Positions 17,093 to 50,584 of a DNA stretch of 64,000 nucleotides are shown here, piece after piece. Each line of letters starts with the position of its first letter. Positions within the stretch are counted from its first letter, which is position 1. The stretch comes from Pseudomonas borbori (GTDB lineage Bacteria; Pseudomonadota; Gammaproteobacteria; Pseudomonadales; Pseudomonadaceae). The position numbers and the translations under genes are program-made. The notes beneath the pieces were generated by a model that ran no database searches, was not told where the DNA came from, and saw only the letters and a program-made list of their open reading frames with translations. The DNA is taken from contig NZ_FOWX01000005.1 of assembly GCF_900115555.1 (NCBI RefSeq), forward strand, positions 124,001 to 188,000, read 5' to 3'.

Positions 17093-17128
17093 GAATCAGC
17101 CGTTACCGGGAGCAAAAGCTCTGCGCCT

Positions 17129-17157
17129 GAATCGGCCGGCATGATGCCGGCCGATTC
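17129..17157. terminator. Long palindrome after the lipoprotein gene
   Basis: GAATCGGCCGGCAT and ATGCCGGCCGATTC form a perfect 14-bp inverted repeat with a single central base, 36 nt after the stop. There is no T-run. It probably acts as a terminator or 3' stabiliser. Confidence 0.55.
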
Positions 17158-17254
17158 ATGAGACGAACGCTACTGGCACAGTCCCTCTGCAGTCCCCATA
17201 GTCATGTTCGTAGCGACCGTTGCGCTCGTTTGAACAAGAATATGAGGCCAGGCC

Positions 17255-28260: not shown

Positions 28261-28300
28261 CGATCCCTGGTGACACCCCCAGGTGCGCCCGATAAAAATG

Positions 28301-28330
28301 AAAAAGCCCCGCAAATCTGCGGGGCTTTTT
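28301..28330. terminator. Bidirectional terminator between gloA and the PA3496-like gene
   Basis: AAAAAGCCCCGCA and TGCGGGGCTTTTT form a perfect 13-bp stem with a 4-nt loop, with T-runs on both strands. Confidence 0.92.
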
Positions 28331-28345
28331 CATATCGGCTTGGGC

Positions 28346-47287: not shown

Positions 47288-47785
47288 TTACCACCAGTAC
47301 TTGCCAAAGTTTTCCGGGTTGGCCCAGAACTTGGCGTTGAGCCAGTCGGGTACCTGTTTGTAGTCGAGCAGGTCGTAGGTGAATAGGCTCAGGGTCTGTT
47401 CGCCGCGCTGAAAACGCTCGCTGACCTGCAAGGCCAGGGCGAAGAAATCGGTGTCCTGCCAGGCGCAGGCCTGCAGGTCGACCAGCACCGCCAGGCGGCT
47501 GGCGTTCAGGTTGCGGATGCCGCCGAGCAGTTGCAGCCCCGTGCGTTTGGGCAGGTGTTCGAGGCAGTCGACGACCAGCGCCAGGTCGAATCGTTGTGCG
47601 GCCAACTCGGCCGGCAGGGCGCCTGCGGCGGCGTAGGCGATCTGGCAATCGGCGTGAGCGGCCCGAAAAGCGACCAGTGCCGGCAGTTCGCTGGCGCCTA
47701 TCAACAGCAGGCGGCGCGGCGCGTAACGCTCCAGCAGAGCGGCCAGCGCTTGCTGTGGCGTGCGGGAAGAAATACTCTCGGTCAT
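47288..47785 (-). CDS. DUF6231-type protein with a methyltransferase-like fold
   Basis: This 165-residue protein has a Rossmann-like pattern ([17 protein letters not shown], then [17 protein letters not shown], with an ELHL-like loop) reminiscent of SAM-dependent methyltransferases. It lacks a classical GxGxG and is shorter than most, so activity is doubtful. It is cotranscribed with the YchJ-family gene 5 nt downstream. I assign the DUF6231 label only by memory. Confidence 0.6.
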
Positions 47786-47943
47786 CGATAATCCTCGATC
47801 GGTTCGGAAAAGACTAACCTGTGGTCGGGTTAAGGCCCCGAATATTCTTAACGGGTATGCATATCATGTCTGGCGGATTCTAAAACGGCAGTCTTTAATC
47901 CATAAGTGTCGGTTTTGGTCCGATTCCTACTGGAGATATGCAT

Positions 47944-48570
47944 ATGAGCATCATAAGGAAAGCTGTACCCCTGATTCTGACGACCAGCTTCCTGACGGGC
48001 TGCGCCGGCTTGCAGAAAAGCGATTGGCCAACTTGTGCTGCTGTCGGCGGTGTGGGTGGCGCGGCATTGGGCGCGATCGAGAGTTCTACCTGGGCGGGTG
48101 GAGGCGCATTGGTCGGTGCCGGCATGGCGGCAGCCTATTGCTGGGTGCATGGCGCCGAAGAAGTGGTGATGGTCGAGGAGGTGATGGTTGAAGAGACGCC
48201 CATGCCCGAGCCAGTCGCAGAAGCGGTGCGGGTCGAGCTGGATGTGAAGTTCGATTTCGACAAGTCGGTAGTCAAGGAAGGCAGCTTCGCCGACATCAAG
48301 AGCGTTGCAGACTTCATGGCGCAATACCCGCAAACTACCACCGTGGTCGAAGGGCATACCGACTCCATCGGTACCGATGCCTACAACCAGGGCTTGTCTG
48401 AGCGTCGCGCCAACGCCGTGCGCGAAGTGCTGGTCAACCAGTATGGTGTGGCCGGTGAGCGCGTCAACGCAGTAGGTTATGGCGAAAGCCGGCCGGTTGC
48501 CGACAACGCGACCGCGGAAGGACGGGCGATCAACCGTCGAGTCGAGGCTGAGGTCGAGGCGCAGCCTTAA
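47944..48570 (+). CDS. OmpA-family lipoprotein, first of a tandem pair
   Basis: I chose the ATG at 47944, 8 nt after GGAG; the ATG at 47938 is too close. The 208-residue product has a lipoprotein signal (lipobox LTGC, Cys20) and a Gly/Ala-rich hydrophobic segment (about 30-65). An acidic Val/Glu/Met linker leads to a C-terminal OmpA peptidoglycan-binding domain (about 110-205) with EGHTDSIGTDAYNQGLSERRA and GRAINRRVE. It should tether the outer membrane to the cell wall. The downstream gene is its close paralogue. Confidence 0.92.
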   Translation: MSIIRKAVPLILTTSFLTGCAGLQKSDWPTCAAVGGVGGAALGAIESSTWAGGGALVGAGMAAAYCWVHGAEEVVMVEEVMVEETPMPEPVAEAVRVELDVKFDFDKSVVKEGSFADIKSVADFMAQYPQTTTVVEGHTDSIGTDAYNQGLSERRANAVREVLVNQYGVAGERVNAVGYGESRPVADNATAEGRAINRRVEAEVEAQP

Positions 48571-48628
48571 GCGGCATTAGGCGCTCCTTTCAGGGGCGTA
48601 CTTGTACTATCCGGGAGAGACGGCTTAA

Positions 48629-48665
48629 CTCCTGTGTTACTGGCAGCACGCCAGTAACACAGGAG
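48629..48665 (+). promoter_or_regulatory. 16-bp perfect hairpin sequestering the ribosome-binding site of the second OmpA gene
   Basis: CTCCTGTGTTACTGGC (48629-48644) and GCCAGTAACACAGGAG (48650-48665) are perfect complements with a 5-nt loop. The 3' arm ends in AGGAG, the ribosome-binding site of the gene starting at 48673. Opening would be needed for translation, or the hairpin may double as terminator for the first OmpA gene. Confidence 0.8.
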
Positions 48666-48672
48666 ATTCGCC

Positions 48673-49404
48673 ATGAGAATCAGACTCTTCAGGGTTGCTT
48701 TCCCCCTTCTCTTGGCCAGCAGTGTTCTTTCGGGTTGCGTCACGACTTCCAGTACGGGAGATGCGGCACTCAACCAGGGGAACTGGCCCTTGTGCAGCGC
48801 GCTTGGCGGTCTGGCCGGTGGTGGCTTGGGCGCAATCGAAAGTTCGGCTTGGGCAGCAGGTGGCGCCGTGGCCGGTGCGGTCGTAGGCGGCCTTATTTGC
48901 TATGCCCAGGATGGTGACCAAGACGGCGACGGCGTGTTCGATCGCCGCGATCGTTGTCCGGATACGCCGCCCAATACTCCAGTGCGCCACAATGGCTGCC
49001 CATTGCCGGTGTATGAGAGCCCGCCTGAAGTGATGCAACCCGATGAGCCTGCAGTGCCGGTTCGAGTCGAGTTGGACGTCAAGTTCGACTTCGACAAGTC
49101 GGTAGTCAAGGAAGGCAGCCACGCCGACATCAAAAACCTGGCCGACTTCATGAAGCAGTACCCGCAGACAAGCACCGTTGTCGAGGGACATACCGACTCC
49201 ATCGGCTCCGATGCCTATAACCAGGGCTTGTCCGAACGCCGTGCCAACGCCGTGCGCGAGGTGCTGGTCGAGCAGCATGGTATCGAAAGCAATCGGGTAT
49301 CGGCTGTGGGTTACGGCGAAGCACGCCCGGTTGCCGATAACGACAGTGAGTCTGGACGCGCAATCAACAGAAGGGTCGAGGCGGCAGTCGAAGCGCTGCC
49401 CTAG
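48673..49404 (+). CDS. OmpA-family lipoprotein with calcium-type repeat, second of the tandem pair
   Basis: The 243-residue protein has a lipobox LSGC (Cys22), the same Gly/Ala-rich stretch as its neighbour, then an inserted thrombospondin-type-3-like segment DQDGDGVFDRRDRCPDTPPN that may bind Ca2+. A C-terminal OmpA domain (about 133-240) follows, almost identical to that of the upstream protein (for instance VKFDFDKSVVKEGS and DAYNQGLSERRANAVREVLV). The pair arose by duplication. Its ribosome-binding site is buried in a hairpin. Confidence 0.93.
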   Translation: MRIRLFRVAFPLLLASSVLSGCVTTSSTGDAALNQGNWPLCSALGGLAGGGLGAIESSAWAAGGAVAGAVVGGLICYAQDGDQDGDGVFDRRDRCPDTPPNTPVRHNGCPLPVYESPPEVMQPDEPAVPVRVELDVKFDFDKSVVKEGSHADIKNLADFMKQYPQTSTVVEGHTDSIGSDAYNQGLSERRANAVREVLVEQHGIESNRVSAVGYGEARPVADNDSESGRAINRRVEAAVEALP

Positions 49405-49523: not shown

Positions 49524-49829
49524 ATGAGCATCTTGTTGGGGCTGGGGAAAGTACTGACCGCGTTGTTTTGGGGCGTGGTCTTGGCCAATCTGCTCGATCC
49601 GTTCGCGCAGCCTTTCGCACTGCTGCTGCATCTGGCGGGTGCTTTGCTCGTGCTGATCCATGGGCTGGAATTGTGGCTGTTCAGTGAGCGCGTGAGCGGG
49701 CGTACTCGGCCCGGGCTGGAGCGCGTGCAGATTTTACTGTTCGGCATTTTTCACTTGCAGGCCCTGTTGTCGGCGCCGGTGCAGCCGCTGAGCGCGGCAC
49801 CTGCGGAGTTGGAGGTCGAGCATGCGTAG
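49524..49829 (+). CDS. DUF1145 small membrane protein
   Basis: The start at 49524 (MSILLGLGKVLTALF) gives 101 residues with three predicted hydrophobic helices and the family layout of DUF1145. Function unknown. The final 8 nt overlap the start of the collagen-like gene, so the two are coupled. Confidence 0.8.
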   Translation: MSILLGLGKVLTALFWGVVLANLLDPFAQPFALLLHLAGALLVLIHGLELWLFSERVSGRTRPGLERVQILLFGIFHLQALLSAPVQPLSAAPAELEVEHA

Positions 49830-50584
49830 CCTGTTGCTGCTGGCCGCACTGTCCAGCCCGCTTGCGTTGGCGCAGAGCCTGATCGACGTGCAGTCGCATG
49901 CCTTGCTGCGCTTGCCTGCGGTAACCAGCGTGGTGCGGGTGGAACGCCTGCATGTTGCGGATCATGGCACCTTGCTGATCCCGTCCGGGCTGAGCGAAAT
50001 GCATGTCGCAGAGCTGCGCCTGGGGCGTGATGCACGGATTGCCATTGCACCTGGCGAGCCAGCCTTTCGTCTGGACGTGGTGAACGCTGAGATCGCAGCC
50101 GGTGCGCAAATCAGCGCACGCGGTGCCCCTGGCTCGTTTCTGCAACCGGCAGTGCCGGGCCGTACGCTCAGCATCCGTCTGCGCGGTGTGGTGGTCGAGG
50201 CGCTCCTGCTCGATGCCCGTGGCGGCATGGGGGCACCAGGTTACGTTGGCCTGGATGGGGCCGATGGCAAGCCGGGCGGCTGTGCCTGGGGGGCAGGCCA
50301 GCCGCGGCCATGACGGGCTGAACGGCAGTGATGGTCAGGCCGGCGCTCGCGGTGGCCAGGTGCGTCTGGAAGTGCCGCTGGACTTTCCACTGGAGCGCTT
50401 GCAGGTACTCCTCGATGGCGGGGCAGGCGGTGCAGCCGGTAATGGCGGTAACGCTGGCGTCGGTGGCGCGAGCAAGGGCTGCTGGCTGTACAGCACGCAG
50501 CCTGCTCGCGATGGGCTGCCCGGCCAGGCTGGCCGGGCGGGGGCTGCAGGGGCGGCAGGCAATCTGGATGTAGTGCGCTTTTAA
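49822..50584 (+). pseudogene. Exported collagen-like (Gly-X-Y) protein, frameshifted
   Basis: The first frame (49822-50313) encodes a signal peptide (about residues 1-17) and a beta-rich domain, then stops after GGCAWGAGQPRP. The next frame resumes immediately with GQASRGHDGLNGSDGQAGAR and a Gly-rich tail to 50584. Removing one G from the six-G run at 50288-50293 joins both into a single protein of about 253 residues. It is either a disrupted gene, a sequencing error, or a phase-variable G-tract. Function unknown; probably periplasmic or surface exposed. Confidence 0.75.

Follow-up and report, generated by a model that had tools for sequence, protein, structure and literature searches.

At the transposase genes of IS10 and IS200, RNA entering from outside the element folds to cover the ribosome-binding site (RBS), blocking read-through expression. 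In phage T4, the region that encodes the 5′ strand of the masking helix of gene e also contains late promoters (PMC3014915, in excerpt), and in Pseudomonas putida KT2440 the 5′ untranslated region (5′-UTR) of the ISPpu9 transposase leader buries the RBS, with an antisense RNA proposed as the opener (PMC8450116, in excerpt). The OmpA-family lipoprotein Pba/PA1041 of P. aeruginosa is under study (PMC7947798, in excerpt), as is PA1048 of the same species, a substrate of LbcA-CtpA (PMC12569750, in excerpt). According to the excerpt of the latter report, an operon fusion of the non-coding region upstream of PA1048 shows expression, with a downward trend in stationary phase, and the LbcA-CtpA substrate genes are described by the authors as all monocistronic or first in their operon (PMC12569750); PA1048 is also tabled among RpoS-regulated genes (PMC3224232, in excerpt). 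PA1041 and PA1048 are set beside the genes treated here as members of the OmpA family only, not as orthologues.

The subject of the present analysis is the leader of gene 2, the second of two co-directional OmpA-domain lipoprotein genes lying in a 64-kb stretch of DNA, the whole of which is referred to as the window (Table 1). Both proteins pass the PF00691 gathering cut-off of 27.2 bits (79.9 for gene 1, 84 for gene 2) and both have lipoprotein-type signal peptides, the lipobox being recognised by eye, while gene 2 has an insert with a weak resemblance, below the Pfam cut-off, to the TSP type 3 repeat. A preliminary description of this DNA spoke of nearly identical anchors, a term that overstates the likeness of two proteins with 56% identity (135 of 243 aligned columns) that are close mainly in the OmpA domain. 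Gene 1 is flanked in the window by a divergent DUF6231 gene. Beyond gene 2, a collagen-like glycine-rich frame in 49822-50584 stops at 50313 and similar glycine-rich sequence goes on in another frame to 50584; from the sequence, this gene looks frame-shifted, or the assembly may be in error.

Table 1. Features of the tandem OmpA-domain lipoprotein locus, in window coordinates.
Feature	Position	Strand	Basis or remark
Gene 1, OmpA-domain lipoprotein, upstream paralogue	47938..48570	+	ORF; Pfam OmpA PF00691, E 1.9e-22; lipobox LTGC by eye
Gene 2, OmpA-domain lipoprotein	48673..49404	+	ORF, Pfam
Gene 1 promoter-like pair, CTGGC ... TTTAAT	47870..47899	+	same register as in relatives
Small hairpin just past gene 1 stop	48581..48599	+	fold; more stable structure here in many relatives
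−35-like TTGTAC (gene 2)	48602..48607	+	TTG 17 bp from −10-like box in relatives
−10-like TTAACT (gene 2), overlapping first 2 nt of 5′ arm	48625..48630	+	TTTACT in most relatives
Complete 16-bp SD-masking hairpin	48629..48665	+	fold, covariation, genome search
Outer 5′ arm CTCCTGTGT, pairing with SD region; only in upstream-started RNA	48629..48637	+	
Predicted transcription start, inside hairpin	48637..48639	+	inferred, 7-9 nt past −10-like box
Inner stem-loop ACTGGC / GCCAGT; would stay at 5′ end of short RNA	48639..48655	+	fold
Shine-Dalgarno (SD) AGGAG of gene 2	48661..48665	+	7-nt spacer to ATG 48673

The hairpin that precedes gene 2 has perfect arms, CTCCTGTGTTACTGGC (48629-48644) and GCCAGTAACACAGGAG (48650-48665), around the loop AGCAC, and is followed by ATTCGCC and the ATG at 48673; the preliminary description was thus right about the arms and the burial of AGGAG within a perfect 16-bp helix 7 nt before the start codon. 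Its energy is −29.6 kcal/mol at 37 °C, and the 161-nt region around it folds with a z of −4.9, with none of 200 shuffles folding equally well. Two perfect 16-bp hairpins (loops of 3-12 nt) occur in the window, this one and another at 28298-28333, and the longest arm in 20 first-order Markov sequences of window length is 14. The second, with an A-run on one side and a T-run on the other, resembles a bidirectional terminator; a perfect 14-bp hairpin with a 3-nt loop lies at 17128-17158. When the source genome was searched with a model of the gene 2 hairpin (E ≤ 1), a single place was returned (reported on both strands), which rules out REP or other dispersed palindromes and marks the hairpin as a local device. 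Across 293 genomes of the order the model matched in four at E ≤ 0.01, all of the same genus and the source genome included, a count that is no prevalence figure, given the strict filters and the few genomes of that genus sampled.

Relatives of the leader were gathered by a DNA search in which 38 of 57 genomes, the source genome included, matched somewhere along the query and the best outside matches spanned the leader. The best 80 of 305 loci (78 titled Pseudomonas), together with regions from further genomes, provided 251 distinct leaders, namely 122 of gene 1, 122 of gene 2 behind gene 1 (tandem) and seven of gene 2 alone (solo). A first filtering left out 2 of 290 without a start, 44 duplicates, one too short, one with Ns and three boxless (L044, L113, L185), and a second left out seven without a start, four not lipoprotein-like, 32 duplicates and four boxless (L044, L113, L185 and the N row L059); L113 and L185 also look degraded. 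The covariation alignment consists of 70 distinct hairpins from the 122 tandem leaders, and standard pairs fill 92% of the cells of its 16-pair structure, a figure outside which L113, L185 and the solo leaders stand, compared with 37-50% in slid structures. Both sides have changed in 8 of the 16 pairs (3.0 in shuffles, 1-6 in slid structures) and in 25 cells (4.2 in shuffles, 2-13 in slid structures), and none of 500 shuffles reaches either value, in a test that is tree-unaware and in which relatedness by itself can lift sequences above shuffles in the absence of structure; the slid controls, together with the differing versions of the outer arm among relatives (GTGT/ACAC, GAGT/ACTC, GTGA/TCAC, CAGTG/CACTG) would nonetheless argue against mere relatedness. 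SD masking by an element with changes on both sides across relatives, a check that the preliminary description had named, is thereby supported. Pairing is poorest at column 14/33 (31 of 70), beside the predicted start, and the consensus that RNAalifold itself derives from the 70 rows retains 8 of the 16 pairs. One gene 2 leader with the hairpin kept behind gene 1 (L210, in genome G182) is followed by no gene 2 frame of at least 100 aa in the stretch examined.

The preliminary description missed the promoter-like boxes that overlap the 5′ arm, which would allow gene 2 to be translated without any opening of the hairpin. In relatives, the gene 2 leader follows the pattern CTTG, a variable spacer, GTC and TTTA(C/A)T; TTTA and the preceding GTC hardly vary among 59 representatives, and CTTG lies 24 nt ahead of the box. 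The −10-like box was recognised by resemblance to GTC-TTTACT, a choice in which the −35 side played no part; the latter therefore serves as an independent test, and TTG lies exactly 17 bp from the box in 121 of the 122 tandem gene 2 leaders with a recognised box. Among the 122 gene 1 leaders, 119 have CTGGC in this register; over the full 122, CTGGC and GTCTTTA(C/A)T are near-invariant, and the exact combined pattern is found nowhere else in the source genome. Of the promoter-like bases, only the last two of the −10-like box take part in the pairing of the hairpin. Lacking an A at the second position of the sigma-70 −10 box, TTTACT is non-consensus, and a stock promoter scan of 47780-48700 that demands this A listed nothing at the gene 2 box. 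At up to one mismatch, the promoter pattern has 11 matches in the source genome (one exact, that of gene 1) against 7 control matches, on which count a regulon sharing the pattern was rejected; the window's own gene 2 site, more than one letter away from the pattern, is absent from those 11. With the predicted start within the hairpin, the RNA of gene 2's own promoter would be without the masking arm.

On balance, we think that the hairpin probably silences gene 2 on read-through RNA and that the overlapping promoter supplies the translatable RNA. This reading is built on the computed hairpin, the burial of the SD, conservation with covariation, the fixed promoter-like spacing and co-occurrence with gene 1. 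Gene 2 would use its own promoter, CTTG(T) and TTTACT separated by 17 bp, whose −10 box overlaps the 5′ arm, and from the start that we infer its mRNA would begin inside the hairpin, lack the SD-pairing arm, keep the short inner stem-loop and be translatable. RNA started upstream, which would arise chiefly by read-through from gene 1, would carry the entire hairpin, and gene 2 would not be translatable on it, so that its protein output would be uncoupled from gene 1 transcription. Read-through into gene 2 is plausible inasmuch as a terminator scan of 47780-48700 reported none at the small structure at 48581-48599, nor at the gene 2 hairpin. In modelled RNAs, the AGGAG of the window is open at 0.002-0.005 when they start at 48500, 48540, 48571 or 48625, and at 0.25-0.96, varying with the 3′ end modelled, when they start at 48634-48641. 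Over the 122 tandem leaders, the median SD opening is 0.004 for the long RNA and 0.126 for the short one, the gain being at least 10-fold in 77; in 42 leaders most of the SD pairing persists in the short-RNA model (open < 0.05), and 15 have no gain.

The strength of the mask tends to go with the presence of gene 1. In all 122 tandem leaders, and in none of the seven solo or the 122 gene 1 leaders, a gene 1-like coding sequence terminates no more than 260 nt upstream; a mechanical ORF check picks up some frame on the same strand, at most 250 nt upstream, for 75 of the 122 gene 1 leaders, so that for gene 1 leaders the claim is limited to the absence of a gene 1-like OmpA gene. The outer-arm duplex has a median of −15.4 kcal/mol in tandem, −5.5 in solo and −7.2 in gene 1 leaders, and it attains −12 kcal/mol or better in 106 of 122, none of seven and one of 122, respectively. 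It is weaker than −12 in 16 tandem leaders and weaker than −8 in seven of them (L063, L075, L076, L084, L093, L173, L176), five of which belong to the P. putida-like leader set. The pairing of the SD with the pre-start arm, at a probability of at least 0.8 in 100 of 110 tandem, 73 of 122 gene 1 and two of seven solo leaders, separates the classes less than duplex energy does. The assertion that gene 1 lacks a comparable structure holds broadly within the window, where the outer-arm duplex is −4.3 kcal/mol for gene 1 and −15.3 for gene 2, but not in full: gene 1 leaders have in common with gene 2 leaders a promoter-like box, a short SD pairing and an inner stem, the equivalent being, by eye, ATCGG / CCGAT. 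One solo genome (G321) lacks gene 1 and has, as the upstream neighbour of gene 2, a divergent gene of DUF6231, the family found beside gene 1 in the window, and in another (G148) the nearest identified upstream gene is a divergent YchJ-like/SEC-C gene. The solo set represents few independent events, and since six of its seven leaders have the gene 1-like CTGGC or TTGGC, solo leaders may simply be those of gene 1.

A trade-off in which a weaker mask accompanies a more stable upstream structure is suggestive only: Spearman is −0.26 (p 0.046) over 61 representatives with relatedness ignored, and the upstream median of −28.6 kcal/mol in five weak-mask leaders compares with −23.3 in 51 strong-mask leaders, with overlapping ranges. 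In L170, the one relative with such an upstream structure for which a scan of the gene strand gave a match, a terminator-like hairpin of 13 pairs, distinct from the masking hairpin and bearing a T-run, immediately precedes the −35-like box, and the masking hairpin is kept. Sequence similar, by eye, to this upstream hairpin is present in L171, L172, L175, L178 and L179. In L173 and L176, a 13-bp stem takes in the −35-like CTTGT; the T-run of L173 is on the other strand only, so not every such upstream hairpin is a gene 1 terminator.

An extension of the preferred reading, and one that we hold to be rather improbable, is that the gene 1 transcript acts as a long untranslatable isoform of gene 2, so that induction of gene 1 would add silent RNA and, by crossing the gene 2 promoter, lower the short mRNA, making of the pair a transcription-driven reciprocal switch between two peptidoglycan anchors. 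Untranslated long isoforms are known in yeast, and the proposed switch would be their bacterial counterpart.

Among the alternatives to silencing on read-through RNA, the one that survives best, though we rate it as unlikely, is a regulated switch in which transcription starts upstream, every gene 2 mRNA has the hairpin, and a trans-acting RNA, protein, ion or helicase opens it. The burial of the SD together with covariation is equally what such a switch would show, and the ISPpu9 transposase leader offers a Pseudomonas precedent, going by the excerpt of its report (PMC8450116). Against it, the promoter-like boxes put the start inside the hairpin, the loop varies in both length and sequence among relatives, and Rfam 15, thermometers and riboswitches included, has no match at gathering score within the window. 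Temperature, an opener suggested in the preliminary description, is improbable on predicted stability, SD opening in the long form being predicted at 0.0004 at 20 °C, 0.003 at 37 °C and only 0.011 at 50 °C; an RNA thermometer is rejected on the same ground, the helix being predicted to stay shut up to 50 °C. Coupling from gene 1 seems unlikely as an opener since the gene 1 stop lies 58 nt before the hairpin.

A second alternative places the function in the DNA: the dyad over the −10 box and the start would be a repressor or activator site and the complementarity to the SD a by-product, which we consider decidedly unlikely. The dyad does overlap the promoter-like −10 box, symmetric changes in the two arms are expected of a dyad too, and the excess of G-U over A-C cells failed as an RNA-specific signature: there are 70 G-U and 15 A-C cells, but two positions account for 53 of the 70 (17 and 15 elsewhere), and shuffled columns give 81 and 25.5, so that the ratio is a matter of composition. 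What disfavours an operator is the variable spacing of the outer arms, whose 9-nt segments are separated by 16 nt in two of the 122 leaders, 17 in 26, 18 in 71, 19 in 17 and 20 in six, where half-sites would call for a fixed distance; the arm sequences also differ between relatives, and the genome holds the element in a single place.

We are more doubtful still that the inner stem alone matters, as a 5′-terminal stem-loop that stabilises mRNA, and that the outer pairing is a side effect of a conserved −10 box (..CTCC) meeting a conserved SD (GGAG). A 5′-terminal stem-loop stabilises the E. coli ompA mRNA, and the gene 1 and solo gene 2 leaders have the inner stem with only weaker outer pairing. 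The outer arm is, however, 9 bp long in most tandem gene 2 leaders, and paired changes fall outside CTCC/GGAG, in the GTGT/ACAC, GAGT/ACTC and GTGA/TCAC versions. Least probable is the transcription terminator or 3′-end stabiliser for gene 1 that the preliminary description had entertained, for which the distance of 58 nt from the gene 1 stop and the great stability would speak, but which is contradicted by the lack of a T-run after the stem, where only ATTCGCC-ATG follows, by the terminator scan of 47780-48700, which reported none there, and by L170, which keeps the masking hairpin besides its separate upstream terminator-like hairpin.

If gene 2 is silenced on read-through RNA in the way preferred here, the occurrence of a conserved and covarying promoter-in-helix on bacterial chromosomes would suggest that tandem paralogues are kept independent in the cell by this means, and reads mapped to gene 2 in RNA-seq would be no measure of its expression. 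The literature searched, mostly without subscription papers and without supplements, yielded no account of this leader, and the novelty that we see lies in its being chromosomal, covarying and linked to a tandem pair of genes, and in the inner stem that the short RNA would retain. The comparison with IS10 and IS200 is one of described behaviour, not of sequence, and these, unlike gene 2, are mobile elements. The ISPpu9 leader is alike in burying an RBS in Pseudomonas, but differs in its long 5′-UTR, its proposed antisense opener, and its gene and structure (PMC8450116, in excerpt). Thermometers such as those of Yersinia ompA (PMC8245352, in excerpt) and the ROSE-like elements of Pseudomonas (PMC3669281, in excerpt) likewise restrain translation through a structured 5′-UTR, one of them on an ompA gene, but they open in the physiological range, whereas the gene 2 helix is predicted to be shut to 50 °C. 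Closest is T4 gene e, with which, as with soc, 49 and I-TevI, the likeness lies in long upstream-started RNAs that bury the SD and/or the start codon (PMC3014915, in excerpt). For gene 2, prediction and covariation point to an SD sequestered in the long upstream-started RNA, and for a promoter whose RNA would lack the 5′ strand there are conserved promoter-like boxes at a fixed spacing and a predicted start, with a non-consensus −10. The T4 switch serves phage developmental timing, whereas the present case, known from sequence prediction, concerns a bacterial chromosomal gene behind a co-directional paralogue, and here, unlike in gene e, the short RNA would keep an inner stem. With these differences, and by analogy, the gene 2 leader most likely follows the logic of T4 gene e.
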